A stretch of 64,000 nucleotides of DNA, from NCBI RefSeq assembly GCF_002257665.1, contig NZ_MQWB01000011.1, positions 62,001-126,000 on the forward strand, read 5' to 3'. Every line of letters begins with the position of its first letter. Position 1 is the first letter of the stretch. Shown piece after piece: positions 22,528 to 58,832 of the stretch. The notes beneath the pieces are model-generated. The model was not told the origin of the DNA. It was given only the letters and a program-made list of their open reading frames with translations, and made no database searches. Both the position numbers and the translations under genes were made by a program. The stretch comes from Rubricoccus marinus. Its GTDB lineage: Bacteria > Bacteroidota > Rhodothermia > Rhodothermales > Rubricoccaceae.

Positions 22528-22531
<4 letters not shown>
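20498..22531 (-). CDS. SGLT-type sodium/sugar symporter (SSS family)
   Basis: The product is 677 aa with about 14 predicted membrane helices. SSS signatures visible include NADGSGEDYFLAGRDLKWWL, SLIAANISTEQFVGMSG, FLPYFLRAGIYTMPQFLEVR and the GLAIASYEWMAA segment, like Vibrio vSGLT. A large extramembranous insert (about 330-430) is unusual in length. Its start overlaps the galactokinase stop as ATGA, so the two are coupled. Galactose (from GH27) or glucose are the likely substrates, taken up with sodium, fitting a marine host. Confidence 0.9.
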
Positions 22532-23680
<1,149 letters not shown>

Positions 23681-23688
<8 letters not shown>

Positions 23689-24703: not shown

Positions 24704-24733
24704 CCTGGAGCGGTCGGGGAATGGGTCATCGAG

Positions 24734-26629: not shown

Positions 26630-26685
26630 GGAGGTGAGACGTGTGGGGTGACCAGGCGCGAGAGGCCCGGACGGTGGGTCCGCTG

Positions 26686-28710: not shown

Positions 28711-28713
28711 GGG

Positions 28714-32375: not shown

Positions 32376-32401
32376 GAAGGAGGGATCGGGGGCGCCAGAG
32401 G

Positions 32402-35188: not shown

Positions 35189-35225
35189 GATGGGCGGGAG
35201 TACGGGCGAGAGCAGCGGGGTGGAC

Positions 35226-36398: not shown

Positions 36399-36405
36399 CG
36401 GCGGG

Positions 36406-37578: not shown

Positions 37579-37597
37579 CGCCAGAGGCAAAGAGAGA

Positions 37598-37658
37598 GAC
37601 CCCCGCCCGGTAAAGGGCGGTCGCGGCAGTTGCCGCTCGCCCGCACCGAGCGGGGGTC
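37598..37658 (-). promoter_or_regulatory. structured intercistronic element between beta-helix and GH26 genes
   Basis: The 126-base gap 37579-37704 is long for this compact operon. It contains an outer inverted repeat GACCCCCGC (37598-37606) with GCGGGGGTC (37650-37658), an internal hairpin GCGGCA-GT-TGCCGC (37623-37636), and an alternative stem CCGCCC/GGGCGG (37603-37620) that overlaps the outer arm. The overlapping stems could switch. It may act as an mRNA stabiliser, attenuator or partial terminator. Confidence 0.45.
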
Positions 37659-37704
37659 CCAGGTTCAACGGAAGCAGGGGGCGTGCCCCCCCACTCCTCA
37701 CGGG

Positions 37705-40305
37705 TTACCGCACGACCGTCATCCGGCGCGTCTGCACGCCGACCGGTGTGGTCAGGCGGTAGACATACGTGCCGCTCGCTAGCTCTGCGGTGTTGACGCG
37801 GAGCTGATGCGGACCTGCGGACATGGGACCGTCCACGAGCGTCGCCACCTTCCGGCCCAACACGTCGAAGACGGCGAGTTGGACGTCAGCACTCTCTCCC
37901 AGTTGGAACTGGATTGAGGCCGCGCCAGAGGCGGGGTTCGGGAACGAGTTGCCCAGCGACCAGCCCTCTGGGAGAGGCTCCAGTCCCGTGGAGTTCGGGT
38001 TGGCGAAGACCGCGAACTGAACGTAGTCCAGGTCGATATCACCCGTGGTCGTCGAGAGCGTGAACGTATGCGTGCCAGGCGTGATGTTGATCCGCGAGGC
38101 CGTCACCGTCCCGCGGCTGCCCTCGGGGCTCGGCGTGAACGTCAGGTTGGCCGCGCTCGCCCCGTCGATCAGCAATTCGCCAGAGGCTCCGGACTCGGAC
38201 TCATAGAAGAACACCACCGTGACGCTCTGTCCCCCTTCGATGATGGGGTAGGCCAGCGTCACCGATCCATCCATGTCGAGGTTTACCGACTTGAAGCCCT
38301 GCGGGCAGTACTGCGTGTCGTCCTCGCACACTTCCTCGACGCCTTCGGTGATCGCCTCTGGCGGGGTCATCGTGTCCACCACCGTCCCACCAGCATCCAC
38401 CACCTCAATCTCGGCGAAGGCTTGGTAGCCCCAGACCGGCTCAATCCGCAGCGTGTGCGTACCAGCCGTCAGGACGAGCCCATCTACGGCATCGTTGATG
38501 AGATGATCGTTGCGGAGTTCGTACACCGTGAACCCATCGGCCGTGGCGATCGGATGATCACACGTGCCACCGGTCCATGCCGAGGTGCAGAAGAAGAGCT
38601 CACCTGCGTTGTCGTCATTCTCCAGGTTCAGGCCGTCGAGGAGGAACCGCTCGCCTCGAGGGTCGCTCCCCCGAAGATCCGTGTTGATGTTCAGGCCATA
38701 CGTGCCGTCGGTCGGAACGGTGAAGGTGTGCTCGATGAATCCGCCAGAGGTGACGAAAATGCTTGTGAAGCCCTCTACGGAGTTCACAGCCGCGTTGTCG
38801 CCGATCGTACCGGCCTCTGCCTGTACGATCAGGCCGTCGATCTCGTTTTCCGGAGGCGGACCCGTCAGGTCGACGATGTCCGTGAGGTACTGCGTGCGGT
38901 TAGCGAGGTAAGTGGCCTTCGCTGCGGGAAACCAGTTGAGATCTCCGAGCGGCAAGCCGTCTGTCCCTGCCGTCAGGAGGGCTGGCGTTGTGTACGAGAA
39001 GTCCTCCGGCAGTGGCCAGTTGATCGCCAATGGGTTGTCTAGACGACCTGGATCCCAATCGAGAATCGCGAACGGAGTGGGCCCCGCATTCGTCACGCTC
39101 TCGATAAAAGACTGCATCGTGGTATACACCTCGTTCGTTAGAGGCGCCACCGCGAGGTTTGGTGAAACGTTGATGTTGCCCTGCCGAACCATTCCAGGGT
39201 AGAGGTTGAAGAAGCTCTGGGTCGAGTCATTCACCAACGGCTGAGCCCGAACGACAGGGTCAAATGTCGTGTAGTAGTTTTCAAGCTCTGGGCTTCTCCA
39301 GTGCGCATTGTTTACGAGAGCAATGCGTCGGTTTTCTTCGAACCCAAAACGAGGGGGTAGCGCGGCTACGCCGAACACGCCCGAGAATGGATCTGCGCGG
39401 TTTGGCTCATTGTACAAGTCCGCGCTCTCCCCTTGCCAGAAGGGGTTGACCATGATGTTGTTCGACACGAAGGAACGAATCCAAATTCCGCCCGCGTTAA
39501 ATGCCAGACCGAAGTTAACCAATGTGTTATGGTTGAACGTGAACGATCGTATCGGCGCAGCCTCTGACTGGAAAGGAAACGACGTGATATTGAAGAACGT
39601 ATTGTTCTCGAACACAACCGAGTCTGCTCCCGCCTCGAACCGGATCCCACGTCCGCCGTAGCGCTGCGTGTTCTCAGTAAGGTTGCGGAAGCTGGAATTC
39701 TGCATCAGAACGATGTTATCCGCGCCCTTCACGCCGAGGTGATGCCAATCGTTGCGATCGAAGATGACGCCGTCGTACGAAAGCATGGCGCCCGAAGAGT
39801 TGACAACGATGGGTTCATAGTTGGCGGTGATGCCCGTGTTGTCCTGACCCATGATCCACAGGTTTGAGAACTCGTGTCCGCCGCCGTTGCTGCTCTCGAT
39901 CATGACGGCGTCAACGGTTCCGTCATCTCGGACGAATCGCTGCAGCGTAGCAGGTCCGCAGTCTTCGGTACCGGAGGCCCCGCAAACGTTGTCCTCTGGG
40001 CGGGCTTGGTCCGCCGTCTGTCCATCGAGGCGAAGGTCGAATCCGTCGTTGACGATGCGATCCTCGTTGTAGTAGAGCCCGCCGCGACGGAGAACGTAAA
40101 CGCGGTCTTCGGGTCGGTCGGTGTCGTTTGCGACCGTGTTGCGTAGCGCGTTGATGTCAGGAAGAAAATCGCCATCGCCGTCCCATTCGACCACGCACTC
40201 TGCGGGGCTGGCCGGGCACGTCGTAAACTGCGCGTTCGCCGTTTGGGTCAGCCCAAGAGCCATCATCACGATGGTCCCGAAGGCGTAGGAGTAGAGATTT
40301 CTCAT
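37705..40305 (-). CDS. secreted right-handed beta-helix protein with CBM-like modules and T9SS domain
   Basis: The product is 866 aa with a signal peptide ending TANA. Residues about 100-330 show parallel beta-helix coils rich in Asn ladders (VVFENNTFFNITSFPF, SFTFNHNTLVNFGLAF, SNNIMVNPFW). Such folds are found in polysaccharide lyases, glycoside hydrolases and adhesins; I see no confident catalytic residues. Two jelly-roll, CBM-like domains follow (about 490-640 and 650-770). The tail is a T9SS domain (GNSFPNPASGAASIQF to GTYVYRLTTPVG). It lies directly after the TonB receptor, where SusD-type genes usually sit. Base composition of the 5' half is clearly lower in GC than the neighbours. Confidence 0.75.
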   Translation of the reverse strand: MRNLYSYAFGTIVMMALGLTQTANAQFTTCPASPAECVVEWDGDGDFLPDINALRNTVANDTDRPEDRVYVLRRGGLYYNEDRIVNDGFDLRLDGQTADQARPEDNVCGASGTEDCGPATLQRFVRDDGTVDAVMIESSNGGGHEFSNLWIMGQDNTGITANYEPIVVNSSGAMLSYDGVIFDRNDWHHLGVKGADNIVLMQNSSFRNLTENTQRYGGRGIRFEAGADSVVFENNTFFNITSFPFQSEAAPIRSFTFNHNTLVNFGLAFNAGGIWIRSFVSNNIMVNPFWQGESADLYNEPNRADPFSGVFGVAALPPRFGFEENRRIALVNNAHWRSPELENYYTTFDPVVRAQPLVNDSTQSFFNLYPGMVRQGNINVSPNLAVAPLTNEVYTTMQSFIESVTNAGPTPFAILDWDPGRLDNPLAINWPLPEDFSYTTPALLTAGTDGLPLGDLNWFPAAKATYLANRTQYLTDIVDLTGPPPENEIDGLIVQAEAGTIGDNAAVNSVEGFTSIFVTSGGFIEHTFTVPTDGTYGLNINTDLRGSDPRGERFLLDGLNLENDDNAGELFFCTSAWTGGTCDHPIATADGFTVYELRNDHLINDAVDGLVLTAGTHTLRIEPVWGYQAFAEIEVVDAGGTVVDTMTPPEAITEGVEEVCEDDTQYCPQGFKSVNLDMDGSVTLAYPIIEGGQSVTVVFFYESESGASGELLIDGASAANLTFTPSPEGSRGTVTASRINITPGTHTFTLSTTTGDIDLDYVQFAVFANPNSTGLEPLPEGWSLGNSFPNPASGAASIQFQLGESADVQLAVFDVLGRKVATLVDGPMSAGPHQLRVNTAELASGTYVYRLTTPVGVQTRRMTVVR

Positions 40306-40362: not shown

Positions 40363-43356
40363 TTAGAACCGGTATCGAGCGCCGACATCTACGGTGTAGC
40401 CATAGAGCTCTCGGTTGGCGAGGCCTCGATCCGTAAACGAGTACTCACCTGTCGTGGAGTTCTGGTTCGTGTACGCGACGTCCGGCCTGTTATTCAGGTT
40501 GTTCAGGTTGACGAAGACCTCGACACCCAGGTCAAGCTTCTGGCGGACGGACAAGTCAAAGCGGGAGTAGTCCCCTACGAAGCGATCATTCAGCGGGTCG
40601 TTCGTGGAAACGGACGACGTCGTGTTGCTCTGGAAGAGGTAGGACACCCGCGTTGAGAACCCCTTGTAGTCGTAGCCCAGCGTCACATTCGCGATGTGCG
40701 CGGCCTGACCGGGCATCCGTCCTACCCGCGAGGTGTCGCTCACCGAAAACGTCTGCGAGCATGGTCGGGGGTTGCAGACCGTCTCACTCTCCAAGAGGTA
40801 GCTGAAGTAGGTCGTCTCTGAGAAACCCCGCGTGTAGTTGAGGTTGAGGACGATCCCTTTCAACAGGCCGGGTAGGTACGAGAAGTTGGTTTGCCATTCG
40901 AGCTCGTAGCCGTAAAACGTGGTCGGCTCAGGGCTGTTGATCTGCGTGTAGAGCGTCGGGCGTGCGGTCTGGTACCACGCCTCCGGCACGTTGGTACCCT
41001 CCGGCGGCGGAAGCGTGCTCGTGATCGGGATGCCGACCCCAACAACCAGGTTGTCAATCTCCTTGTAGAAGCCGGAGACACCGACAAGGCCCAGGTTGCC
41101 TCGGATGACCTGCGCGGACGCGTCGTAGTTCACCGCTGAAGCAGGGCTCAGGCGCGAGTTCGCAGCGACGACAGACGAACTGTAGATGTCGATGGACGTG
41201 ATCGGCGCGTACTGGCTGAAGCTGGGCCGGATGAGCGTCTCGGTGCGGGCCAGTCGGAGCGAGAACCAGTCGGTCGGCCGGATGTCGGCATGGACCATCG
41301 GCAGCCAGTAGTCGAACGTGCGATCCCGAGTGATCCGCTCGTAGTCTCTCGGCGGCTGACCAGCTTGCCCGGTCGCGACGGCGCGGAAGACCTGCCCGGT
41401 GTACGAGGTGTTGTCTCTCTCGTAGCGGATGCCCGGGATCACCGTGAGGTAGGGGCCGAGATTGAGTTCAGCCATCACGTACCCTGCCTGGTAGTTTTCC
41501 GAGCCCTCGTAGTCGCGCCCTAGCGATCCAATCGACTCCGGGATGTACTCGCCGAAGTAGACCTCAGCGCCGGGTACGTCGCGCGGGTCCGAGCAGAAGT
41601 CGGGGTTTTGCAGGGCTCGCGTCAGCTCCATGAGCCTGTCCTCGTCAGGAACCAGCCCGAGCCCGTACACCCCGTCGAAGAAATCGGTACCCCGATCGTA
41701 GTCCGTCAGGACAGAGCCGATGGGTAGGCGATCCCCGTTCCGGAACTGATCGGCGAAGTCAGGGACCCCCTGCGCGAGGCACTCATAGAGCTGCGCGTCT
41801 GGATACTGGAGCCCTTGACGACCGAACCGGTTGGTGTCAAAGGTCCGATCCAGCCAACGGAGCTTGCCTCCGGTCTTGACGTATCCCGAGATGAAGTCTC
41901 CTAGCCGGAATGGCGCCTGCAGGTTTGCCTGAACGCCCATCTGGTCTTCGTCCAGGCGGCTATCGTCAACCCAGAGCTGGGAGAGCTCAGTGGTCGAGTC
42001 TACGAGGACCGTGACGTCCTCTGGAAAGACGTTGTAGCGCGCCTCGGTTCCTTGTCCGAAGCCCGTCCCCTCCTTGTTGAACACCCACGTGAAGTTCTCC
42101 GGGCTCTTCGCGCGTGATGTGCTGAGCGTGGCCGTCGCGTCGTACTGGATCCATCCGAAGTCCTGCTCGACGCCGAGCGCGCTAGACAGGAGGGACGTCT
42201 CGTTCTGCTGCCGTTCGAGGTTGTAAGCGAGGCGGTCTGCCACGTTTTGGTAGCGAAAGCGCGCGTCGTCGTTGCGTGAGTTGTAGAACGCGTTGGCCGT
42301 CGCTCGTCCACCCGGGAGGGTGTAGTCGAGGAGTACGCTGCCTCCTGTGCGCCCGCGCCGGACCGTCTCCTCACGGGTCGAGAGGTCGTTTACGTAGAGT
42401 GCGGATTCCCCCGACCCATCCGTGAGCGAGCCGAGCCCATATCCCACGTTCAGCTTGTCCGCGCTCCGATCATACTCCTCAGCGTTGAACGTGACGATGG
42501 CTCCCAGCCGGTCTTGAAAGAACCGATTGCTAGCGGTCCCCACAAACTTGTAGTTGCCGAGGTAGCCCTGGAGACCGGTGTACCCACCCTGGGCGAGGAG
42601 GTCCAGCGCCGGGCGGGAGGGCGCATTTTTGAGACGGAGGTTGATCGTTCCGCCCACGGCGTCGGCATCCATGTCAGGAGTGATCGCCTTGCGGACCTCA
42701 ATGCCGTCGAGAATGTTGCTCGATACGAGCGAGAGGTCGACGGACCGGTTACCGCCGTCCGTTCCTGCTAGGCGGACACCATTAACGGTAACGTTGTTGA
42801 ACTCCGGCGAGAGCCCACGGATGGAGACGGAGTTGGCCTCTCCGCCCGAGCGCTGAATTGCAACGCCCGGTAGGCGCCCGATGGATTCTGCGGCGTTGTT
42901 GTCTGGGAGCTCCTGGATTCGGTCTGCCGAGACGACGTTGACGACCGTCCGGCTCCGGTACTGCTCGTTGATGGCCGCGAGTTGGCCAGCAACTTGGGCA
43001 GTGACCGTCACCCCCTCGAACGTGGCGCTCTGTAGAAAGACCTCTACCTCGATGGTACCCCGGTCGGGCACGCTTACGGTGAGCGTGTCGCTTTGATAGC
43101 CAACGTAGGACACCACGAGCCGCTGCTCACCCGAAGGGACGCTGGGGATCGAGAAGCGCCCGTCGAGATCTGTCGCGGCGCCGAGGGAGGTGCCCACCAC
43201 GAGGACGTTGGCACCGATGAGAGTCTCGCCCGATACGGCATCGGAGACGGTTCCCACGACTCGACCGGCGGCGTCTAGGGGCACCGCAGCGAAGGCTTGC
43301 GCAGAAGCAAGCATGAGCACGGAGACGAGGAGGGTGCGGGAGAGTGTCGCAGTCAT
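40363..43356 (-). CDS. TonB-dependent outer-membrane receptor with CarboxypepD_reg-like domain
   Basis: The product is 997 aa. After the signal peptide a CarboxypepD_reg-like domain (GRVVGTVSDAVSGETLIGAN) precedes a plug domain (VVNVVSADRIQELPDNNAAE; RLPGVAIQRSGGEANSVSIR). The 22-stranded barrel ends with the aromatic signature YTVDVGARYRF. The linker INEQYRSRTVVNV matches the Xanthomonas/Caulobacter-type carbohydrate receptors (TIGR01782-like). It is the first gene of the long leftward unit and would import manno-oligosaccharides across the outer membrane. No SusD partner is present. The gene lacks the CCAGAGGC decamer that pervades its neighbours. Confidence 0.9.
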   Translation of the reverse strand: MTATLSRTLLVSVLMLASAQAFAAVPLDAAGRVVGTVSDAVSGETLIGANVLVVGTSLGAATDLDGRFSIPSVPSGEQRLVVSYVGYQSDTLTVSVPDRGTIEVEVFLQSATFEGVTVTAQVAGQLAAINEQYRSRTVVNVVSADRIQELPDNNAAESIGRLPGVAIQRSGGEANSVSIRGLSPEFNNVTVNGVRLAGTDGGNRSVDLSLVSSNILDGIEVRKAITPDMDADAVGGTINLRLKNAPSRPALDLLAQGGYTGLQGYLGNYKFVGTASNRFFQDRLGAIVTFNAEEYDRSADKLNVGYGLGSLTDGSGESALYVNDLSTREETVRRGRTGGSVLLDYTLPGGRATANAFYNSRNDDARFRYQNVADRLAYNLERQQNETSLLSSALGVEQDFGWIQYDATATLSTSRAKSPENFTWVFNKEGTGFGQGTEARYNVFPEDVTVLVDSTTELSQLWVDDSRLDEDQMGVQANLQAPFRLGDFISGYVKTGGKLRWLDRTFDTNRFGRQGLQYPDAQLYECLAQGVPDFADQFRNGDRLPIGSVLTDYDRGTDFFDGVYGLGLVPDEDRLMELTRALQNPDFCSDPRDVPGAEVYFGEYIPESIGSLGRDYEGSENYQAGYVMAELNLGPYLTVIPGIRYERDNTSYTGQVFRAVATGQAGQPPRDYERITRDRTFDYWLPMVHADIRPTDWFSLRLARTETLIRPSFSQYAPITSIDIYSSSVVAANSRLSPASAVNYDASAQVIRGNLGLVGVSGFYKEIDNLVVGVGIPITSTLPPPEGTNVPEAWYQTARPTLYTQINSPEPTTFYGYELEWQTNFSYLPGLLKGIVLNLNYTRGFSETTYFSYLLESETVCNPRPCSQTFSVSDTSRVGRMPGQAAHIANVTLGYDYKGFSTRVSYLFQSNTTSSVSTNDPLNDRFVGDYSRFDLSVRQKLDLGVEVFVNLNNLNNRPDVAYTNQNSTTGEYSFTDRGLANRELYGYTVDVGARYRF

Positions 43357-45058: not shown

Positions 45059-46288
45059 TCAGGCAGGGTGCGCGCGAGCCGCCAGTGGCTCGGGCGTCGG
45101 GACCCGGTGCATGATTTCCATGCACGCACGGGCGTTGTGGTAGGGGCATTTCCAGGGGCCCACCTTGTCCTCCTCGCGGTAGGGCGTGCCGTCGCGGGAA
45201 ACGCGGAAGAACCACTCCCCGCCCTCGCGGTCGATGATGTGCTGCTGGATAAAGGCCCAGGCCTGGGCCGCAGCGCGCGCAAAGGCGGGATCGTCTGTGT
45301 GCGCGTACGCGTTGAGGAAGCCGACGACGGCCTCGGCCTGTGGCCACCAATGTTTGTCGGCGTCGAGGTGGCCGCTGGCGTCCCGTTCGTTGAAGAGGCC
45401 ACCGTCTTCGTCGAGGCCTTCGGTGCACGCGAGACGAGCCAGACGGAGCGAGGCGGTGCGCACGCGGGTGCTGAGCTCGTCGTCGCCGAGCACATCGGCC
45501 GCTTCGTCCATCAGCCAACTCGCTTCGATGTCGTGCCCGTAAGAGACGACGCCAGAGGCCGGCGTCCAGTCCATGCCGAAAAAGCTCCCGAGGTGGCCCG
45601 TCACGGGGTCGATCACGCGGTCGAGGAACAGGTCGAGGAGCGCGCGGATGCGGGCGGCGAGGCCCGCGTCGGGCCAGACGTGGTAGAGCGTGGTGTAGGC
45701 CTCCAGGACGTGGAGGTGCGTGTTCATCGTCTTCGGCGCGTCGGTGTCTTTCTCGCTGAGGCGGACGTCCGCCAGAGGTCCCCACTCGCGAGAGAACGCC
45801 TCCAGGTAGCCGCCGCGCACGGGGTCGACGGCCCGCCGCTCGATCAATCGGTACAGGTCCTGAGCCCAGGCCAGCGCCTCCGCGTCCTTTGAATGCCGGA
45901 CGTACTCCGCGAGGCCGTAGATGGCGAACGCCTGCGCGTAAACCTGCTTCTTGGTCTCCGTCGGCTCGCCAGAGGCGCTGACCATCCAATAGATGCCGCC
46001 GTGGTCGGGGTCGCGGAAGCGGTCGCGGAGGGCGTGGTAGGCCTCGTCGGCTTCGTCACACCATTGGTCCGTCTGGAGCGTGCGGCACGCCGCAGAGAAG
46101 GTCCACAGGATGCGGGCGTTGAGGACGGCGCCTCTGGCGGCGCCGGGCTCGGGGCGGTCGTGGCCGTCGATGCGCCCGATGAAGCCGCCGCGCACGGGGT
46201 CGATGGTCCGGTCGGCCCAATACGGCAGGATGTGGTCGACGAGTTCGGCGCGAGCGCCAGAGGCGAGTCGGGCGAGGGCGTCCATCAT
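45059..46288 (-). CDS. cytoplasmic cellobiose/mannobiose 2-epimerase (AGE family)
   Basis: The product is 409 aa without a signal peptide. AGE/renin-binding alpha6/alpha6-barrel features include [27 protein letters not shown], the histidine blocks [29 protein letters not shown] and [16 protein letters not shown], and [13 protein letters not shown]. These match cellobiose 2-epimerases, which turn mannobiose into mannosyl-glucose. The start overlaps the GH130 stop as ATGA. With GH130 it completes the known cytoplasmic mannobiose pathway: epimerisation, then phosphorolysis to mannose 1-phosphate and glucose. Confidence 0.93.
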
Positions 46289-47523
46289 TCCGAGCGGTCG
46301 AGGACGGCGCGGTTGCGCCGGATGAGGTCGAGGCGCTGCTCGACCGAGGCCGCCGAGCGGAGCGCGTCCTCCGGCGTGTGCTGCGCGTAGTCCACCAGCC
46401 GGCCTAGAGTACTGGTGGCGACGTGCAGGCGGGAGTCCGACGAGGCGTAGTAGATGAGCACGGCCCCGTCGTCGTCCAGAATCCAGCCGTTGGCAAACGT
46501 GACGTTGGAGACGTCGCCGACGCGCTCCTCGCCCTGCGGCTCGATGAGGTGACCGCCTGGGGCGTGCGTGATCCGCCACGGCTCGTCGAGCGCGGTCATG
46601 AACAGGTAGGTCACGTAGCGCAGCCCCGCGGCCGTGTTGCGGACGCCGTGCGCCAGGTGGAGCCACCCGGCGTCGGTCTTGAGCGGCGGTGGACCCTGCC
46701 CGTTCTTGACCTCTTTAATGGTGTGGTAGACGCGAGGGTCGATCACGCGCTCGGCGTCCACACGCGCGCCGTCCATCGTCGGCGAAGTGCCCCAGCCGAT
46801 GCCGCCGCCCGAGCCTGCCGAGATGAACCCGTCCTGGGGCCGCGTGTAGAGCCCATACTCTCCCCCGACGAACTCCGGGTGCAAGACCACGTTGCGCTGC
46901 TGCGGCGACGGCGTTACCAGATCCGGGAGACGCTCCCATGTCCTCAGGTCGCGTGTCCGCGCGATCCCGCACTGCGCAATGGCGTCCGAGAGGTCACCTC
47001 TGGCGTGGGCCTCCAGGTCGGCGCGTTCGGTGCAGAAGAGGCCGTAAATCCAGCCGTCCTCGTGCGCGGTCAGGCGCATGTCGTAGACGTTCGTGTCCGG
47101 GTCGTCGGTCTCCGGCATCGCCAGAGGCTCGTCCCAGAAGCGGAAGCCGTCGACGCCGTTGGGGCTCTCGGCGACTGCGAAGAACGACTTCCGGTCGTCG
47201 CCTTCGACGCGCGCCACGACGAGGTAGCGCCCCTCGTGCTTGATGGCGCCCGCGTTGAACACGGCGTTGACGCCGAGCCGCTCCATCATGAACGGGTTCG
47301 TCTCGGGGTCGAGGTCATAGCGCCACGCCAGAGGCGCGTGCTCGGCGGTGAGGACGGGGTAGCGGTAGCGGGTGTAGATCCCGTTGCCGAGCGCTTCGGG
47401 CTCGTTGGGCCGCGCGAGGAGCGCCTCGTGGGCGTCGCGGAGCGCGCGGAGACGGGCCTCTGGCGAGGGCGAGGGTGAGGGGGCGCCGTCACCCCCAGAG
47501 GAGAAGGAAGAGCCGAAAGCCAT
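46285..47523 (-). CDS. GH130 mannosylglucose phosphorylase
   Basis: The product is 412 aa. The five-bladed propeller features match GH130_1: [60 protein letters not shown] (with the catalytic Asp region) and [12 protein letters not shown], then [20 protein letters not shown]. The substrate is expected to be 4-O-beta-mannosyl-glucose, giving mannose 1-phosphate plus glucose. I use the ATG at 47523 because the earlier start at 47541 is a TTG with no additional homology. It is tightly coupled to the epimerase. Confidence 0.93.
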
Positions 47524-47548
47524 TGGAGAGGGCGGATACAAAGATGAG

Positions 47549-49480
47549 TTAGGCGGGAACGGGCGACTCGAACGGAGCCTGCTGCGGGCCGCCAGAGGCC
47601 GAGACGGGCGTGCCCGAGGTGGAGGCGTCGTCGAGGCCGGGCTGCTCGGGGTAGTCCTCCAGCTTGTCGTACCAGTTGACCTTGAGGAAGGCGCTCGTCA
47701 CGATCACGACGGTGACCGAGGTGGCGAGCCCGCTCCAGTCCTCCAGCACGATGAGAATGCCGGTGGCGACGAGCGCCGTCTGCCACACGATGCCGACGAC
47801 GACGTTGACGGCGTCGCGCTTGAAGCCGCCGTTGGCCTGGATCTCAGGATGCTCCGCCACGACGGCTTCGTGGACGGGGCTCCAGAAGCCCCACGGCCGC
47901 ACCTTGAGGTAGAAGTTCTTCAGCACCCCTGGGGGGTCGGGCTCGGTGAGCAGGCTCCCCGCGATGCAGCCTACGAGCGAGAGCGCGAGGATGAGCGGAA
48001 AGGCGTAGAGCGGGGTTGCGGCGCCGAAGTCGAGCCCGAGCAGGCCCATCGTCGGGGCGGCGATGCCCGCGGCGACGATGCCGGCGAGCATGCCCCAGAA
48101 GTAGCCGTAGCTGTTGAACCGCCACCAGTGCCATTTCAGCAGGTTGGAGGCCGCGTAGCCGCCATAGAGCGCACCCACGAGCCACTGCACGATCTCGTTC
48201 AGGTTCTGCGCCACGAACCCGAACCCAGTCCCGATAACGACAACGATGATCGAGACGAGATAGCTCATCCGCACATACGTCTTCTCGGACGCGTCCGGGT
48301 TGATGTACCGCTTGTACACGTCGTTGACGATGTAGGCAGGCGCGGCGTTGACCGTGGCGGCGTAGGTGCTCATGAACGCCGCCAGAAGCGCCGCGATGAG
48401 GAGGCCGAGCAGGCCGGTCGGGATGAACTCGCGGAGCGTGAAGGGCAGGATGAGTTCGAAGTTGACGTCGGAGCCCATCGCGCCCAGCTCGTCGCGGAAG
48501 AAGACGAGCGCGAGGACCGTCAGGCCGGTGATGAGCATGTAGCGAGGCACCATCAGGACGAGGCTCACAAGCCCGCTCATTTTGGCCGCCTCCTTTGGCG
48601 TCTTGGCCGAGAGGACGCGCTGCATGTCGTAGTTGGGAGCAGGGCCGGCCATGCTCCCGAGGACGCCCTTGAAAAGCATCATCATGAAGAAGGCCCCAAA
48701 GAGGGTGTACCCGTCCGCGGCGATCTTCTCGTTCGCGGAGGGCAGGATGGCGGCCCAATCGAGGTCCAGGTTCCAGCCGAACCAGAGGTTCCCCCAGCCA
48801 TCGGGCACCGCCGCGCTGAGGGCCTCTGGCGCGACCTGCTGCATCGCGATTGCGCCGACCCAGAGGCAGGCCACGGTCATGATGCAGAACTGGAGCACCT
48901 CGGTAAAGACCACGCTGAACATCCCGCCCTTGACCACATAGAGCGTCGCGATGGCGGTGATGATGAGGCCGTAGAGGTTGGCGTTCCACGTCGGGTCGGC
49001 CGACAGCTCGAACGGGAGGAAGGCAGACGCGAACTGCCCGATCCCGATGAACCCGTAGGCCAGGAACCCGACGACGTTGATGAGCGCGAAGAGCACCACG
49101 ACGAGGTGCGACAGCTTCGCGCCTTGCCCATCCCCAAACCGGAATCGGATCCACTCCGCCCCCGTCATCACCCCGGAACGCCTGAGCCAGACCGAGAGGT
49201 ACACCATCAGGAAGATCTGGTTGAAGACCGGCCACAGCCAGGGGATCCAGATGCTCTTCATCCCATAGACGAAGAGGAGGTAGACGAGCCACATCGTGCC
49301 CGAGATGTCGAACATCCCAGACGCGTTCGAGAGACCGAGGGCGTACCAGGGAATCTCGTTTCCGCCGAGGAAGTAGTTCTGGATGCTCTTGGAGGCCCTC
49401 CGCGAGATCCAGAAGCCGATAAACACCGTGACCACGATGTACGCGGCGATGATGGTCAGATCGATGGGGTGAAGGTTCAT
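47549..49480 (-). CDS. sodium/solute symporter (SSS family), probable mannobiose transporter
   Basis: The product is 643 aa with about 14 helices. It opens [40 protein letters not shown] and [20 protein letters not shown], an SSS-family layout. The mid part has [27 protein letters not shown]. It is the first gene of the unit carrying the epimerase and GH130, the usual position of a mannobiose importer in mannan loci. The spacing to GH130 is 25 bases. Its promoter region is shared with the divergent ROK regulator. Confidence 0.9.
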
Positions 49481-49630: not shown

Positions 49631-50875
49631 ATGCTCACCGGAACGAACCTCTCTCACGCCAAGCGCCACAATCTCCAGATTGTGCATGAGACGATCCGGC
49701 TGTATGCGCCGATCTCGCGGGCGGACGTAGCCAGACGCACGGGGCTGACCGCGCAGACGATCTCGAACCTCGTCCGCCAGCTGATCGATACAGGGCTCGT
49801 GATCGAGACGGCTCGGGCGACGGGGGGCCGCGGCGCACCGCCGATCCAGCTGGAGGTCAACCCCGACGCCGCCTTCTCTGTCGGGCTGGACCTGGACACG
49901 GACCACCTCACCGCCGTTCTCGTGGACCTTTCGGGTGCCGTGCGCGCGCGCATCCACCACGAGGTGTGGCTCGCGGCGCCAGAGGCCGCGCTCGACCTCT
50001 GTGTCGAGACGACCGAAGCCCTCGCGAAAGAGCTCGACCTGCGTCATGGCCAGATCTGGGGCATCGGGGTCGGGATCCCAGGGCCGATGCGGCCAGGACC
50101 GGACGGGACCTATCTCGTGAACCCCATCGCGTTCCCGCAGTGGCACGACGTGCCTCTGGCGGAGCAGCTCCACGCCCGGCTGGGCCTGCCGGTCTTTATC
50201 GAGAACAACGCGACGGCCGCGGCCGTGGGCGAGCACTGGTATGGCGCCGGGCGCCACCTCTCGACGTTTTTCTACGTGTACCTCGGGAGCGGGCTCGGCG
50301 GCGGGCTCGTGGTGCAGGGGACGCCGTTCGAGGGCCACACGGGGAACGCGGGCGAGATCGGCTACCTCGCGCCTCAACGCGCCTCTGGCGGGCCGACGCA
50401 CGTCGGCGAGCTGTTCAACCTCGCGAACCTGTACGCGCGCCTGGGCGAAGCGGGCGTCGAGGCCGCGACCCCCGACGATCTGCTCACGCTCCACGAGGCC
50501 GGGGACGACGCCTTCGAGGCGTGGTTCGACGAAGCGGGGGAGCAGCTCGCAAACCTCCTGTTCACCGTCCGCGCTATCCTCGACCCCGAGGCGACGTTCG
50601 TGGGCGGCCGGTGGCCGGACCGCCTGCTAGGAGATTTGCTGGAGCGCGCCCGCGTGCATCTCACTGACAGAGTGGTCCCCGGCGGCCTGGACGCGCCCGA
50701 ACTCCGCCTCGCGACCGCTGGCGCCGACGCCGGCGCGCTGGGCGTCGCCTCCCTCCCGCTTTACCACGCCTTCGCGCCGCTCCAGCGAACATCGCTGCGC
50801 CGCGCCGACTCGGCAACGGGACAGAACAACGGGTCTGAGGCCGTGTCCGCATTCGAGCGAACCGAGGCGGGCTAG
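49631..50875 (+). CDS. ROK-family transcriptional regulator
   Basis: The product is 414 aa. An N-terminal MarR-like winged helix (about 8-65, NLQIVHETIRLYAPISRADVARRTG) precedes the ROK domain with GLDLDTDHLTAVLVD, the GIGVGIPGPM block, ENNATAAAVGEHWYGAG and YLGSGLGGGLVVQG. The cysteine cluster CxCGxxGCxE that usually binds zinc is replaced by GYLAPQRASGG, so the regulator is an atypical member. It is divergent from the mannobiose symporter and likely represses it until a sugar ligand binds. No kinase activity is implied. Confidence 0.88.
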   Translation: MLTGTNLSHAKRHNLQIVHETIRLYAPISRADVARRTGLTAQTISNLVRQLIDTGLVIETARATGGRGAPPIQLEVNPDAAFSVGLDLDTDHLTAVLVDLSGAVRARIHHEVWLAAPEAALDLCVETTEALAKELDLRHGQIWGIGVGIPGPMRPGPDGTYLVNPIAFPQWHDVPLAEQLHARLGLPVFIENNATAAAVGEHWYGAGRHLSTFFYVYLGSGLGGGLVVQGTPFEGHTGNAGEIGYLAPQRASGGPTHVGELFNLANLYARLGEAGVEAATPDDLLTLHEAGDDAFEAWFDEAGEQLANLLFTVRAILDPEATFVGGRWPDRLLGDLLERARVHLTDRVVPGGLDAPELRLATAGADAGALGVASLPLYHAFAPLQRTSLRRADSATGQNNGSEAVSAFERTEAG

Positions 50876-50915: not shown

Positions 50916-53279
50916 CTACCAGCCGGTGATCTCGCGGACGACCGGCTCCAGCTCATCGGCCATGCGGACGTGCTCGGCGCCGCCGGGGTGGCCGTCGCAT
51001 CCCGCGACGTAGCGGCCGTCGTAGGTGAACACCGAGACCGCCGGGTCGCCAGAGGCCGCGCGGCGGGCGGCGACCTCGCGGAGGTAGCCTGCGAGTTGCG
51101 CCTTCTGCGCGCCCTCGAAAACGGGGCTGTTGAGGAGCAGGACCGGGGCGTCGGGGTAGCGCTCGCGGAGGCGGGCAAGGAAGCGCGCATAGTCTGCGAC
51201 GAAGGCGGCGCCGTCCAGAGCCTCGCGAGTAGTCTCGCCGTCGCCTGCGGAGAAGTCGTTGGTGCCGAGGGCGACGACGACAAGGTCGGGGCGGTACAGC
51301 GTGCTGTCCCACGGCGGATTGTCCGTGGCGTACTCCATGTACACGCCGTCGTACACGTCCGGCATCACCGGCGCGAGCGTGTTCCAGTTGCGGTGCAGGC
51401 CCATCCCGGAGACGGACGACAGCATCCACTGCGCGTCCAGGCGCCTCGCGAGGCGCGGGCCGTACGCGATCCACGCGTGAGTCGCGTCGTACCACGTCCC
51501 CGCTCCGCAGGCGATGGGCTCCGAGTCGGCGCCGAAGCCGCTCGTGATGGAGTCGCCGATGAACTCGATGCGGCGGGCGGGAAGCGGTTCGGCAGGCAAG
51601 AGCTCAGCGCCCGAGAACGAGACGAGCCGGTTGTGGCCGTTCTGGCCTTCGGTCGCTTTGCTCAACCAGAGCGTGTGCTCGCCAGAGGCGAGGCCTTCTG
51701 CGAGCACCGTCTCGCGCTGGCCGGGCCGCGTCTGGAATCGGACCGGCTCCCCGCCGTCCACGACCACGGTGAACCAGTTGTGCTCCGTCCCGTAGCGGAA
51801 CTCGTCTTCGATGTGGGCGGCGAGGCGCGTGCCTCGGAAGCGAACGACGAACGTGACGCCAGAGGCAGCAAACGAGACCGAACCGTCCGGGTGCGCGAGG
51901 TGGCGTCCCATGATCTGAACACGCGGATCGGCGGCGGGGACGCTCTGCAAACGGCGGGCGACGTTCATGAGCGCGCGGGCGTTGTGGTACGGCCCTTTCC
52001 AGATCCCGCCCTTGTCCGCGCGGCGAAGCCCGGGCTGGCGGTCGAGGGTCCCCATGTACCAGCCGCCGTGCTCGTGGTCCACGAGGTAGGCCTGGATGGT
52101 GCCCCATATCTGCAAGAAGCGGTCGTGGTAGCGCATCGGGTCGTCCGGGAAGTGGTCGCCCATGAGCAGGAGCGTGTTCAGGCCCTCGGCCTGCGCCCAC
52201 CAGTTCTTGGTCGGGTCGGTGACCGACAGAGGCTCGCCGTCGGCGAAGTAGTAGCCCGCCTCGACGAAGCCCGCGTTGGCGGCGTCCCAGCCCGTGCGAA
52301 GGCTGTGATCGACCATTTTCTTGCCCGCCAGAAGCGTTGGCCCGGAGTCCAGTCCGATCGCCTCGGCGGCTTCGAGCATGAGGAAGGCCGTCTCCACGTC
52401 GTGCCCGAACGAGACGTGGTCGTAGTACCGGTTGGCCTCTCGCACGTCTTCGGTGGAGTCGCGGTAGGAGACGGGCGTCCAGTCCGCGAGCGAGAACAGG
52501 GTGAGCGTGCCGGGCTCGACGGTGATGGTATCGCGGATGAGCGTCAGCATCTCGTCGATCCTCTGGCGGAGCGTCGCATCGGGCCAGACGTGGTAGAGCT
52601 CGGTGAACGCTTCCAGGATGTGGATGGATGAGTTCTGGTCCTTCGGCGGCGTGCGCCCGAGCCCCTGGCGGAGCGGCTCGCCCTCGCGCGTGAGGTAGTT
52701 GAAGTAGCCACCGTGCTCGGCGTCGTGGGCGTGGGCATCGAGCCAACGGAAAGCCTCTTGCGCCATCGCCAGAGGCTCCGGGTGGCCTGTGGCCGCGTGA
52801 GCGGCGGCGAGGCCGTAGATGGCGAAGGCGTTGCCGTAGGCCTGCTTGACGAGGCGCCCGTCGGCCTCGGGGATCGGCGTGCCGTCGCGCTGGACGAGCC
52901 AGTAAAAGCCGCCGTTCTCGGCGTCCCACATCTCATCCCGCAGGAAGGCGACGCCGTGGAGTGCCATCTCGCGGTAGGCCTCGTCGTCGGTCCACATCGC
53001 GGCCTGCGCCGTCGTCCAGACGTGGCGCGACTGCGTGACGATCATCTTCTGTTGGTCGCCGACCGGATTCCACGCGTAGTCGAACCGGCTGAGGAAGCCG
53101 CCCGCCTCGCGGTCGACGGCGCGTGGATACCACGCGTCCAGAACCTCGCTCTGGAGCGAAAACGTCATCTCCTCTGCGAGCGCCGCGCGCACGTCGGGCG
53201 CCAGAGCCGTGCCGGCGGTCTGGCCTCTGCCGGGGACGGCGAGGAGCGCGAGCGCTGCGAGGGCGAGGGGTCGGATCAT
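50916..53279 (-). CDS. exported fusion of an AGE-type 2-epimerase and a CE2-like SGNH esterase
   Basis: The product is 787 aa with signal peptide MIRPLALAALALLAVPGRG. Residues about 25-430 are an AGE/cellobiose 2-epimerase domain. It keeps the three histidine blocks seen in the cytoplasmic enzyme (SSIHILEAFTELYHVWP, FGHDVETAFLM, KGPYHNARALM) and WWAQAEGLNTLL. Residues about 440-560 form a CE2-type jelly roll. The SGNH hydrolase has FIGDSITSGFGAD (Ser577), LGTNDFSAG and DGHPGGAEHVRMAD near residues 760-770 (catalytic Asp/His). CE2 enzymes deacetylate manno-oligosaccharides. Coupled by ATGA to the CBM-GH26 gene. An exported 2-epimerase fused to an esterase is not an arrangement I know. Confidence 0.88.
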   Translation of the reverse strand: MIRPLALAALALLAVPGRGQTAGTALAPDVRAALAEEMTFSLQSEVLDAWYPRAVDREAGGFLSRFDYAWNPVGDQQKMIVTQSRHVWTTAQAAMWTDDEAYREMALHGVAFLRDEMWDAENGGFYWLVQRDGTPIPEADGRLVKQAYGNAFAIYGLAAAHAATGHPEPLAMAQEAFRWLDAHAHDAEHGGYFNYLTREGEPLRQGLGRTPPKDQNSSIHILEAFTELYHVWPDATLRQRIDEMLTLIRDTITVEPGTLTLFSLADWTPVSYRDSTEDVREANRYYDHVSFGHDVETAFLMLEAAEAIGLDSGPTLLAGKKMVDHSLRTGWDAANAGFVEAGYYFADGEPLSVTDPTKNWWAQAEGLNTLLLMGDHFPDDPMRYHDRFLQIWGTIQAYLVDHEHGGWYMGTLDRQPGLRRADKGGIWKGPYHNARALMNVARRLQSVPAADPRVQIMGRHLAHPDGSVSFAASGVTFVVRFRGTRLAAHIEDEFRYGTEHNWFTVVVDGGEPVRFQTRPGQRETVLAEGLASGEHTLWLSKATEGQNGHNRLVSFSGAELLPAEPLPARRIEFIGDSITSGFGADSEPIACGAGTWYDATHAWIAYGPRLARRLDAQWMLSSVSGMGLHRNWNTLAPVMPDVYDGVYMEYATDNPPWDSTLYRPDLVVVALGTNDFSAGDGETTREALDGAAFVADYARFLARLRERYPDAPVLLLNSPVFEGAQKAQLAGYLREVAARRAASGDPAVSVFTYDGRYVAGCDGHPGGAEHVRMADELEPVVREITGW

Positions 53280-55003
53280 CGGGTCACGACGAGTCGGCCG
53301 TGCGAGACGCGGTCGCCCGCGGCGACGCGGACGAGGTAGGTGCCGCTGGCGGTGGGGGCGGTTACGGCGGCCTGGAGCGCGCCCGCAGGCTGCACGCCGA
53401 GCCTCTGGCGCGAGACGAGGCGGCCCGTGAGATCGAACACGTCCACGGTTACGTCAACCGTGGCGGCGAGCGTGAGAGTGAGCGTCGTGGCGCCAGAGGT
53501 CGGGTTGGGATAGAGCGCCAGCGGGATTTGGGCCTCTGGCGTGGGCTCGGAGGCGGTGGCGAGCGTGTAATCGCGCCAGTCGGGGAGCTCGTCGCGTGTG
53601 AGGACGACCTCGCTGGTGTAAATCCGCGTCAGGCGGTCGGCGGGGATGTCGCGCTCGAAGCCGTTCCAGACGTTGAACCAGCTCCACCAGATGCCGCGGT
53701 CGGCCGAGTCGTCCATGTCGGGGAGCGTCCCGGACTCGGTGAGCGAAACGAGCTTGTTGGCGCCGAAGGCGTCCTGGAGCAGCTCCCACTGGCTCGTGAT
53801 GAGCGTTTCGGGGTCGTCGGAATAGAAGTCCCGCCCGACCACGTCGACGTAGTCGTCACCGGGGTACCACGCCAGAGGATCGCTCGCGGGCTCGTAGGTC
53901 CAGACCCAGATGAGGTTGTGGAGGTCGTGGACATCGGTCAGCCGGTCGTACACGAGCCGCCACAGCTCGACGTAGTCGGCGCCGCTCTGGGCGCCCCACC
54001 AGAAGAAGCCGCCTGCGGCCTCGTGGAGCGGGCGCCAGAGGACGGGGATGTCGGCGTCCTCGAACTTCTGGAGTTGGACGGCGATGGCGTCGATGTCCCG
54101 CAAGAGGAGGTCGTAGTTGGCGCCGCCGGGGCCTTCGGCGAGGGCGTCGGCGAAGTCGAACGAGGTCGCCTCGGTGTAGAAGCCGCGGTACCACGGCTGA
54201 TCCGCCGTGTTGTAGAGGTCCGTCGGGGCGTTCCAGTGCCACATCAGGTTGACGATCCCCTCCTTTCCGTCGGCGTCGGTCTGCGCCCAGCCGATCCATT
54301 CCTCGGACCAATCGCGCGGCGCGCCGCCGAACTGGATGCGCGAGGGGGAGTAGTCGATCAGGTCGAAGCCGCCGATGGCGGGCACCTTGCCCGTAACGCT
54401 CGTCACGTAGTCGATCTCCGCCGTGCGGGGAGAGCCGCTGTAGATGTCCTGCTGCGCCGAGAGGATGTGCTCGCCGTACTCGTCCAGCAAGAAGGCGAAG
54501 AGCGCGCGTGCGGACGGCGACGCATCCGGGTCCGAGAGAACCGGCGGGGGGACGGCCGGGCCGGGGTACGAGACGGGCGCGAACGTGAGGTAGTCCACCT
54601 CGAAGCTCCCGTGGACCGTGATCGTGTGGGAACCGGGGCTCAGCCGACGCTCGGCCACGACGATCTCGCGGAAGGCGCCCGTCACGGGGACGTTGGTCGA
54701 GATGGGCGTCTGGTCATCGACCTGCACGGTGTACGACGCGAAGCGCGCGTTCGCCGCGACGGCGAGACGGATCTGGACGAAGTCGCCAGAGGCGTCCACG
54801 GTAAAGCGGAGGCTGTCGCCGGGCTGGACGATGCCGGTCACGTAGCCCGTCCCGGAGTACCCGGCGCGCTCGGTCGCGACAGCGGCGTTGCCGACGAGCG
54901 CGGCGTCCTCGGCTTCGAAAAGCGCCTGGGCGCGAGAGGCGCCGCTGGCGAGGAGGAGGACGGCGAGGAGCGTGGCGGTGCGGAGCGTGGCGGTGCGGAG
55001 CAT
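53276..55003 (-). CDS. CBM35-GH26 beta-mannanase with T9SS domain
   Basis: The product is 575 aa. The signal peptide is followed by a CBM35-like module (FEAEDAALVGNAAVATERAG to FEVDYLTF). The GH26 domain (about 155-480) has IVNLMWHWNAP, the acid/base Glu in VLWRPLHEAAGGFFWWGA and the nucleophile Glu in LVSLTESGTLPD. The tail ALYPNPTSGATTLTL to GTYLVRVAAG is a T9SS signal. It attacks insoluble or cell-wall mannan at the surface. The frame runs to 55261, but homology and the signal peptide set the start at 55003. Confidence 0.92.
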   Translation of the reverse strand: MLRTATLRTATLLAVLLLASGASRAQALFEAEDAALVGNAAVATERAGYSGTGYVTGIVQPGDSLRFTVDASGDFVQIRLAVAANARFASYTVQVDDQTPISTNVPVTGAFREIVVAERRLSPGSHTITVHGSFEVDYLTFAPVSYPGPAVPPPVLSDPDASPSARALFAFLLDEYGEHILSAQQDIYSGSPRTAEIDYVTSVTGKVPAIGGFDLIDYSPSRIQFGGAPRDWSEEWIGWAQTDADGKEGIVNLMWHWNAPTDLYNTADQPWYRGFYTEATSFDFADALAEGPGGANYDLLLRDIDAIAVQLQKFEDADIPVLWRPLHEAAGGFFWWGAQSGADYVELWRLVYDRLTDVHDLHNLIWVWTYEPASDPLAWYPGDDYVDVVGRDFYSDDPETLITSQWELLQDAFGANKLVSLTESGTLPDMDDSADRGIWWSWFNVWNGFERDIPADRLTRIYTSEVVLTRDELPDWRDYTLATASEPTPEAQIPLALYPNPTSGATTLTLTLAATVDVTVDVFDLTGRLVSRQRLGVQPAGALQAAVTAPTASGTYLVRVAAGDRVSHGRLVVTR

Positions 55004-56360: not shown

Positions 56361-58832
56361 GTGATCCGCCTCTTCTCCCTCCTTCTCCTCGCGCCTCTGG
56401 CGGCTTTTGCACAGCCCGCCGACTTCGCCCTGACCGAGCGCGGCTACTTCGAGCGCGAAGGTGTGAGCGTGATGGCGTTCCAGGACTTCTACCCCGATAG
56501 CCACCAGGGCGGCATCACCGTCGTCCAGCACGGTATCCGGATCGCGGCCAACGGCGACCTGCGGCTCGGCGCCACGCCCGGGCAGTGGGACCCCGTCCCC
56601 AAGCAGGACAGCCGCGAGGAGGCCTCTGGCGAGATCGTGACGCGGCTCTCGTACCCGGATCCGGGCAAGAACCGGCGCGGCTTCAACCCCATCGAGTACC
56701 CCGACCTGGAGATGGGCTACGCCGTCCGCGCCCGCGCCGAGGGCGACGCCATCGTCGTCACCGTAGACCTCGACACGCCGCTTCCCACCGAGTACGTGGG
56801 GCAGGTCGGCTTCATCCTGGAGCTGTTCCCCGTGGACCTCTTCGGCAAGAGTTGGATGCTCGGCGACGCCAGAGGCCAGTTCCCGCGCCAACCCAACGGC
56901 CCGACTGCCCGCAGCGCCTCAGGCGAGGCCGAGGCCATCCCCTTCGCCAGAGGCCGCAGCCTGACTGTCGCGCCGGAGACGGACGACCTCCGCTTGACCA
57001 TCGAGAGCCGAACGGGGGAACTGGCTCTGCTAGATGGGCGCACCCTGCACAACAACGGCTGGTTCATCGTGCGCGAGACGGTCCCGGCGGGCGCCACCTC
57101 TGGCGCCATCGAGTGGACGATCCGGCCACACGCGATTCCCGGCTGGGTGCGCCCTCCCGTCGTGCAGGTCTCACAGGTCGGCTACCACCCGGCGCAGCGG
57201 AAGACGGCCGTGATCGAGCACGACGCGCGCGATACCGAGTCCACGCCCGCGCGCCTCGTCCGCATCACGGCCTCTGGCGCCGAGACCATCCGCGAGGCCA
57301 CGCCAGAGGCCTGGGACGGCGACTTCCTGCGGTACGACTACCGCCTCTTCGACTTCTCGGACGTGACCCAGCCCGGCCTCTACGCCATCGAATACCGCGG
57401 CGAACGGACGCACGCGTTCCAGATCTCGCCAGAGGTCTACGCCCGCGACGTGTGGCAGCCGACCGTGGACTACTTCCTGCCGGTCCAGATGTGCCACATG
57501 CGCGTGGAGGACCCCTACCGCCTCTGGCACGGTGCCTGCCACCTGGACGACGCCCGCATGGCGCCCGCCGATTCGAACCACTTCGACGGCTACGTGCAGG
57601 GCGCGGAGCTTCTGGCGCCGTTCGAGCACAACGACCGCGTGCCCGGCCTCGACGTCGGCGGCTGGCACGACGCGGGCGACGACGACCTCCGCATCGAGTC
57701 GCAGGCGGACGAGGTGTGGGTCCTCGCCTCGGCTTACGAAGCCTTCGACGCGCTCCGCGACTACGACGACACCACGATCCGCCAGCAGGATCGGTTCGTC
57801 AAGATCCACCAGCCCGACGGCGTCCCGGACCTGCTCCAGCAGATCGAGCACGGCACGATGAACATCGTCGGCGGCGTGCGCTCGTTGGGCCGGTTCTACC
57901 GCGGCGTCATCGTGCCCACGCTGGAGCAGTACCGCATGATCGGCGACTTCGCGGGCAGCACCGACAACCTCGCCTACGACCCCGACCTCGCGCCAGAGGC
58001 CCGGACCGCCACGGCCTCTGGCGTGGCGGACGACCGGATGGTGTTCACCGAGCAGAACGCTGGGCACGAGTACAAGGGCATCGCCGCGCTCGCCATCGCC
58101 GCCCGCGTGCTGGCCGAGTACAACCCGCCTCTGGCGCGAGAGGCCCGCGAGGCCGCCGAGAGACTTTGGGCCGCTCCGCGCGACGATTCCCGTGGCTTCG
58201 CCGACAAGGTCGCCGCGGGCGTCGAGTTGTTCCTCACGACGGGCGGCGACCGCTACCGCCAGTGGCTTCTGGCGAGCCAGGACCAGATCGTCGCCCAGAT
58301 CGGTCGGACCGGCTGGACCGTCGGCCGCGCGGTTCCGCGTCTTGGCGACGCCGGGTTCGAGCGCGCCGTCCGCCAAGCCGTCGCGTCCGACTTCTCGGCC
58401 ACCGCCGAGGCCCAGCGGAGCACGCCGTACGGCGTCCCCTACGAGCCCAACATCTGGGGCGCGGGCTGGGACATCCAGGCCTTCGGCGTGCGGCAGTACT
58501 TCCTGCACCGCGCCTTCCCCGAGACCGTCAGCGCGGAGTACATGCTCAACGCGCTCAACTTCATTCTCGGCGTCCACCCCGGCGCCAACACCGCCTCGTT
58601 CGCCTCTGGCGTCGGCGCCCACTCCGTGGAGCGTGGCTACGGCCTCAACCGCGCCGACTACGCCTACATCCCCGGCGGCGTCGCCAGCGGCACGGCGCTC
58701 ATCCGGCCGGACTTCCCCGAGTTGAAGGACTTCCCGTACCTCTGGCAGCAGGCCGAGTACGTTATGGGCGGCGGCGCGACGCACTTCATGGTCCTCGCCC
58801 TCGCGGCGGACCAGATCCTCAACGCGGAGTAG
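56361..58832 (+). CDS. GH9 enzyme with an extra N-terminal domain
   Basis: The product is 823 aa and starts with GTG at 56361, directly before a signal peptide (IRLFSLLLLAPLAAFA). Residues about 20-270 form a domain of unknown function rich in beta strands (HQGGITVVQHGIRIAANGDL; FNPIEYPDLEMGYAVRARAE). CelD_N-like Ig domain about 275-375 (VQVSQVGYHPAQRKTAVIEH). The GH9 domain has the Asp pair in GGWHDAGDDDLRIESQADEV, TPYGVPYEPNIWGAGWDIQ and LGVHPGANTASFASG, with a late Glu in WQQAEYVMGGG. This divergent GH9 type often acts as an exo-glucosidase or endo-glucanase on cello- or glucomanno-oligosaccharides. No T9SS tail. Confidence 0.87.
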   Translation: MIRLFSLLLLAPLAAFAQPADFALTERGYFEREGVSVMAFQDFYPDSHQGGITVVQHGIRIAANGDLRLGATPGQWDPVPKQDSREEASGEIVTRLSYPDPGKNRRGFNPIEYPDLEMGYAVRARAEGDAIVVTVDLDTPLPTEYVGQVGFILELFPVDLFGKSWMLGDARGQFPRQPNGPTARSASGEAEAIPFARGRSLTVAPETDDLRLTIESRTGELALLDGRTLHNNGWFIVRETVPAGATSGAIEWTIRPHAIPGWVRPPVVQVSQVGYHPAQRKTAVIEHDARDTESTPARLVRITASGAETIREATPEAWDGDFLRYDYRLFDFSDVTQPGLYAIEYRGERTHAFQISPEVYARDVWQPTVDYFLPVQMCHMRVEDPYRLWHGACHLDDARMAPADSNHFDGYVQGAELLAPFEHNDRVPGLDVGGWHDAGDDDLRIESQADEVWVLASAYEAFDALRDYDDTTIRQQDRFVKIHQPDGVPDLLQQIEHGTMNIVGGVRSLGRFYRGVIVPTLEQYRMIGDFAGSTDNLAYDPDLAPEARTATASGVADDRMVFTEQNAGHEYKGIAALAIAARVLAEYNPPLAREAREAAERLWAAPRDDSRGFADKVAAGVELFLTTGGDRYRQWLLASQDQIVAQIGRTGWTVGRAVPRLGDAGFERAVRQAVASDFSATAEAQRSTPYGVPYEPNIWGAGWDIQAFGVRQYFLHRAFPETVSAEYMLNALNFILGVHPGANTASFASGVGAHSVERGYGLNRADYAYIPGGVASGTALIRPDFPELKDFPYLWQQAEYVMGGGATHFMVLALAADQILNAE

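Follow-up and report, generated by a model that had tools for sequence, protein, structure and literature searches.

In the window, by which we mean the whole 64,000-nucleotide stretch of the Rubricoccus marinus genome that was analysed, one gene encodes a signal peptide, a 2-epimerase and a CE2 esterase in a single protein. We consider with moderate confidence that this protein works in the periplasm as a bifunctional enzyme of a galactoglucomannan utilisation locus, in which the CE2 domain would remove acetyl groups and the epimerase would then act on the reducing end; the parts of this explanation that we infer are the activity, the substrate, which step comes first and what partner acts downstream. 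A wider reading is offered more tentatively: in Bacteroidota and relatives, a clade of exported 2-epimerases, joined to CE2 or to GH9, might form an unrecognised periplasmic stage of glucomannan use. Once the oligosaccharides are deacetylated, these enzymes would reset reducing ends between mannose and glucose ahead of inner-membrane transport, with a second epimerase in the cytosol feeding GH130.

Domain architecture and predicted export of the fusion protein

The gene and its parts are as follows.

50916..53279, minus strand: fusion protein of 787 aa (signal peptide, 2-epimerase and CE2 esterase), one uninterrupted ORF
53220..53279, minus strand: signal peptide, residues 1-20, from the N-terminus and the N-termini of orthologues
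52035..53099, minus strand: epimerase domain PF07221, residues 61-415, with His220, His293 and His432 (Pfam E 7e-36)
51915..51941, minus strand: short linker, residues 447-455; at the same place in the related genome G006, a stop codon and a short gap precede a separate lipoprotein signal
51594..51914, minus strand: CE2_N jelly-roll domain, residues 456-562 (Pfam PF17996, E 4e-19)
50919..51563, minus strand: SGNH esterase domain, residues 573-787, with Ser577, Asn674 and His764 (PF13472, Lipase_GDSL_2, at 573-739, 8e-18)

All three Pfam matches lie above the curated cut-offs, and the homologous barrel of the epimerase half extends beyond the PF07221 match to about residue 446. The NCBIfam models EpiA (1.4e-50) and AxeC2 (7.8e-56) also match, both below their curated equivalog cut-offs; for EpiA the fusion scores 172 and the canonical cytosolic copy 400 against a cut-off of 800, so that both fall short. 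Among solved structures, the epimerase half matches the cellobiose 2-epimerases 5zig and 3wkf (about 1e-50 to 1e-45) and the esterase half the CE2 acetylxylan esterase Axe2C, 2waa (about 1e-42). AlphaFold models the epimerase as a confident (α/α)6 barrel, with a mean pLDDT above 90 across most of the domain; its best fold match is RmCE, 3wkf (TMt 0.90, rmsd 2.6), and the Runella glucose-2-epimerase 8h1k is another close one. The CE2 half was modelled poorly in the full-length run because the alignment there was thin; modelled alone, it reached a pLDDT of 87 and a pTM of 0.90, and it matches Axe2C 2waa with a TMt of 0.69. Two alignments mixing both halves (A2 and A3) were left out of prediction, as their CE2-only rows were misaligned.

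By alignment, the RmCE residues R66, Y124, N196, H200 and H259 correspond to R85, Y148, N216, H220 and H293 of the fusion, and E262, W322, W385 and H390 to E296, W361, W427 and H432; the roles of His259, His390, Tyr124 and Trp385 in RmCE are given in PMC5726027 and PMC6222537. The sequence-only reading had described a signal peptide, three histidine blocks and a C-terminal SGNH esterase with its catalytic residues, and this architecture is borne out by the ORF, the Pfam matches and the residue mapping.

Signal peptides were called by simple rules and by comparison with orthologues. The N-terminus of the fusion, MIRPLALAALALLAVPGRG followed by QTAG, looks like a signal peptide: it has a charged start and a hydrophobic core, and a Q follows the likely cleavage site. 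The cleavage motif of the fusion itself departs from the classic AxA, which the orthologues do have (VFA and VHA, each followed by Q). In G006 the epimerase and the CE2 esterase are two adjacent genes, the first ending in TAG and the second opening with a new ATG about 20 nt on, and this CE2 has a lipoprotein signal of its own (MPRVLALLAVSFLTATGCAS). All other stand-alone CE2 proteins that were inspected likewise have their own N-terminal signals. Since stand-alone epimerases and CE2 enzymes carry their own signals, both halves appear to be separately extracytoplasmic in relatives, which supports the predicted export of both halves of the fusion. No lipobox was seen at the fusion N-terminus, and the Pfam and NCBIfam scans of the protein gave no match to Por_Secre_tail, the T9SS tail. 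The neighbouring GH26 protein has such a tail and the fusion does not, which probably places the GH26 at the cell surface and the fusion protein in the periplasm. The earlier wording that the fusion acts before uptake does not hold as it stands, because the protein lacks the T9SS tail of its GH26 neighbour; it holds when rephrased as acting in the periplasm, before inner-membrane uptake.

A search for the same architecture in other genomes, the check proposed with the sequence-only reading, found the fusion in 2 of the 245 genomes searched within the class, both of the same family. The second fused genome, G005, has the same full-length architecture at 77% identity, and together with the comparison of junctions it rules out a frameshift, sequencing or assembly artefact; the third member of the family having these genes is G006, where they are split. 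The epimerase adjoins a CE2 encoded as a separate gene in three further genomes, G009 and two Ferruginibacter. In G009 the epimerase has no signal peptide and the CE2 next to it has one, which means that adjacency of the two does not always imply one compartment. G005 (fused; L085/L128) and G006 (split; L086/L129) belong to one genus and pair up in the epimerase tree with a support of 94, the window genome (G000, fused) falls outside that group, and the linkers of the two fused proteins differ; the fusion may have arisen twice independently, or once with a later replacement.

The galactoglucomannan locus and the proposed pathway

The fusion gene lies in a galactoglucomannan locus of about 40 kb, spanning roughly 20 to 61 kb of the window, the relevant neighbours being these.

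53276..55003, minus strand: GH26 mannanase-like protein with CBM35 and a T9SS tail; its stop overlaps the fusion start by 4 nt (ATGA)
49631..50875, plus strand: ROK-family regulator, convergent with the fusion gene, an arrangement kept in G005 and G006
47549..49480, minus strand: sodium:solute symporter, candidate inner-membrane importer (Pfam/NCBIfam)
46285..47541, minus strand: GH130 of the mannosylglucose phosphorylase (MGP) type (3was, 590 bits)
45059..46288, minus strand: canonical cytosolic cellobiose 2-epimerase without a signal peptide, from family profiles and its N-terminus
40363..43356, minus strand: TonB-dependent receptor-like protein, named from sequence; homologues lie near the epimerase in other loci
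56361..58832, plus strand: divergent GH9, whose relatives lie next to the exported epimerase more often than any other gene and are fused to it in four genomes

The glycosidases of the locus comprise three GH26, several GH5, GH3, two GH9 and the MGP-type GH130, and the locus also holds an MFS and two SSS transporters and a GHMP-family kinase with a galactokinase signature. At 20498-40305 are found two further GH26, GH5 and CBM35 proteins with T9SS tails, a GH3, a conventional GH9, the MFS transporter, the galactokinase-like kinase and a β-helix T9SS protein. The GH9-like protein at 56361-58832 has a DAGD motif and a weak Pfam score, and phmmer against solved structures gave no match for it; it possibly represents an uncharacterised GH9 subgroup linked to glucomannan. 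The mannan context proposed earlier for the fusion is supported by this content and by the core gene order of the locus, which is kept in G005 and G006, and the cytoplasmic epimerase said to lie about 5 kb off is the one at 45059-46288 (minus strand), 4.6 kb away.

In the pathway that we favour, GH26 and GH5 mannanases at the surface would release acetylated (gluco)manno-oligosaccharides, which the TonB receptor would bring into the periplasm. There the C-terminal CE2 esterase would strip the acetyl groups; CE2 enzymes act on 3-O, 4-O and 6-O acetyl mannose (PMC13276840). The N-terminal epimerase would then exchange mannose and glucose at the reducing end, turning for example Man-Man into Man-Glc or Glc-Man into cellobiose. 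Its chemistry would be the His-His acid/base cis-enediolate mechanism of cellobiose 2-epimerase, which would need an unacetylated reducing-end O2 and probably O3, so that the known mechanism leads one to expect no action on an O2-acetylated reducing end and probably none on an O3-acetylated one. Conversion of Glc-Man to cellobiose would open it to hydrolysis by GH9 and GH3. GH130 needs mannose at the non-reducing end (PMC12704710), and a mannosylglucose phosphorylase therefore cannot use Glc-Man. Conversion of Man-Man to Man-Glc would supply the importer and GH130. The products would be oligosaccharides that periplasmic GH9, GH5 and GH3 enzymes and the inner-membrane symporters can manage, while the second, cytosolic epimerase would keep feeding GH130.

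The exported clade and alternative functions

Relatives of the epimerase half, 45-60% identical, occur often in Bacteroidota and neighbouring phyla. In trees with canonical enzymes and PDB references, the fusion epimerase and these relatives form one clade (support 100), separate from the canonical EpiA clade and about 30-38% identical to canonical epimerases. By a rule-based scan, 94 of the 121 clade members have a signal peptide or lipobox; most of the others have one that is evident on inspection, follow a fused GH9, are fragments or are ambiguous (L098), and 13 have no signal. About 107 clade sequences were classed as exported, and none of the canonical copies in the sample has a signal peptide. 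These numbers rule out that this genome alone has the exported epimerase, as well as that the whole clade is exported. In place of the earlier picture of a one-off, the exported epimerase is one of many in a large clade, mostly exported, of Bacteroidota and relatives; only its fusion to CE2 is rare. The clade is widespread and apparently uncharacterised. A Chitinophagaceae-like copy (L058) comes from a record under the title Williamsia (Actinomycetota), which is likely a mislabelled or contaminated bin.

The pocket of most clade members differs from that of RmCE: H198 is replaced by Ser, D188 is lost, A263 is replaced by Thr and Y307 by Asp or Glu, and an insertion precedes the H259 position. 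With H198 replaced and D188 lost, the substrate may differ from those of characterised enzymes. It might then be supposed that the exported epimerase acts mainly on a monosaccharide or another disaccharide (mannose or glucose, lactose-like or other β-linked sugars), the mannan link being incidental. Many clade members do sit in neighbourhoods without mannan genes, certain cellobiose 2-epimerases use mannose or glucose (PMC13281645, PMC6222537), and the close fold match to the Runella glucose-2-epimerase points the same way. However, N196, W321 and K381 in all clade members, and D260 in nearly all, are as in cellobiose 2-epimerases and unlike the Runella enzyme; W385 of RmCE stacks on the non-reducing sugar (PMC6222537) and its equivalent does not vary within the exported clade, although the Runella enzyme has Trp there too; and a cytosolic subclade partners GH130, as described below. 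We regard this explanation as rather unlikely. Outside mannan loci, exported epimerases were seen beside methylmalonyl-CoA mutase in Algoriphagus and beside SIR2/OMP genes in Prolixibacteraceae (L012, L015, L078 and similar).

A single nested subclade, with a support of 100, holds 12 of the 13 members without a signal (L109, L111/L144, L114-L119, L137, L138, L148, L150 and L152). The 12 genomes that carry it have an MGP-type GH130 and no canonical epimerase, and the signal-less gene is beside or near GH130 in G196, G059, G070 and G009. Tree and gene content indicate that the signal peptide was lost in this subclade, which took the place of the canonical cytosolic enzyme in genomes with GH130. 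It thus seems that a clade member can step into the role of cytosolic mannobiose epimerase, which is good evidence that the chemistry of the clade is of the cellobiose/mannobiose 2-epimerase type. Several genomes with GH130 and without a canonical epimerase had raised the idea that the exported copy replaces the cytosolic one for GH130; it was rejected when the N-termini showed that those genomes carry signal-less clade members.

Could the exported epimerase nevertheless be a relocated copy of the cytosolic step, chiefly making mannosylglucose for the symporter and GH130? It shares its locus with an MGP-type GH130 and an SSS symporter, also in G005 and G006, and a marine Muricauda mannan PUL likewise takes up disaccharides by a symporter (PMC9860051). 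However, among surveyed genomes, which were picked for having the clade and are uncorrected for kinship, 23 of the 24 with an MGP-type GH130 have a cytosolic epimerase, either canonical or of the re-internalised subclade, the other (G022) being ambiguous, and those with an exported copy only (G222, G235, G258 and G426) lack the MGP-type GH130. GH130 genomes nearly always keep a cytosolic enzyme, which argues that the exported form is no substitute for it and not just a feeder of GH130, and we consider a relocated copy unlikely. The same survey supports the earlier proposal that the exported enzyme has a role separate from that of the cytosolic one.

The commonest neighbour of the exported epimerase is a divergent GH9 (17 of 76 loci, usually directly upstream), and in four loci the two are a single protein of about 1235-1290 aa with GH9 at the N-terminus.

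L052, 5583-9290: GH9-epimerase fusion
L065, 5583-9296: GH9-epimerase fusion
L074, 5469-9314: GH9-epimerase fusion
L100, 1492-4284: GH9-epimerase fusion

Across 74 hand-picked genomes, uncorrected for kinship, this GH9 type occurs in 13 of 23 with an exported epimerase versus 7 of 51 without (Fisher p 4e-4).

The mapped substrate and acid/base positions of RmCE, including the three histidines, are invariant in 107/107 exported relatives, and so is the equivalent of E203. In the esterase, Ser577 (GDSI), Asn674 (GTND) and His764 are shared by all 12 CE2 relatives compared; the Asp two positions before the His does vary, as would be expected for CE2 enzymes relying on a Ser-His dyad. Conservation thus supports the catalytic competence of both domains. 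It is very improbable that the fusion works as an esterase only, with the epimerase domain acting as a non-catalytic sugar-binding module or scaffold: fusions often recruit binding modules, but a retired catalyst would not show invariant equivalents of R66, H200, E203, H259, E262, W322, W385 and H390 in all exported sequences.

Comparison with known systems

Current models of β-mannan use place 2-epimerisation in the cytoplasm, just ahead of GH130, and probably, judging from the signal peptides, it also takes place in the periplasm. If so, the exported clade, fused to CE2 or to GH9 in different lineages, would add a periplasmic processing step and account for the two epimerases found in many mannan degraders; the benefit of epimerising ahead of inner-membrane transport is presumed. 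Bifunctional enzymes for prebiotic sugars, with products of the epilactose and mannosylglucose types, might follow from it. In the open-licence literature, no description of an exported epimerase or of an epimerase–CE2 fusion was found, and the available passages of the papers on Muricauda and B. cellulosilyticus (PMC9860051, PMC13276840) name an epimerase without placing it outside. The earlier statement that such a periplasmic step is undescribed stands to that extent; as to novelty, the exported epimerase itself is common and only the fusion is rare.

The fusion epimerase resembles the EpiA/RmCE family of the AGE superfamily in its (α/α)6 barrel, its three histidines, its Trp and Arg/Asn/Glu set and its association with GH130 and mannan loci. 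It differs in being exported, in belonging to a separate clade, in being fused to CE2, and in its pocket (H198 to Ser, D188 lost, the insertion before H259). The esterase half is similar to the CE2 family (Axe2C 2waa, CtCE2 2wao and RiCE2) in its CE2_N jelly roll and SGNH domain, its Ser/Asn/His residues and its mannan context, but here it is fused behind an epimerase. To our knowledge, characterised CE2 enzymes either have cellulase modules as partners or stand alone.

The pathway of Roseburia intestinalis, in which a CE2, a second esterase, an epimerase and GH130 work in one entirely cytoplasmic route (PMC6385246), likewise brings deacetylation and 2-epimerisation of manno-oligosaccharides together, but as separate proteins and behind an ABC transporter. 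Glucomannan PUL 7 of Segatella copri (PMC12704710) is also similar, with GH26 and GH5 outside, GH130 and an assayed EpiA inside and a separate esterase (CE7); its EpiA is predicted to be cytosolic, and the part of that paper available mentions no exported epimerase. Overall, the fusion is built from known enzyme families.
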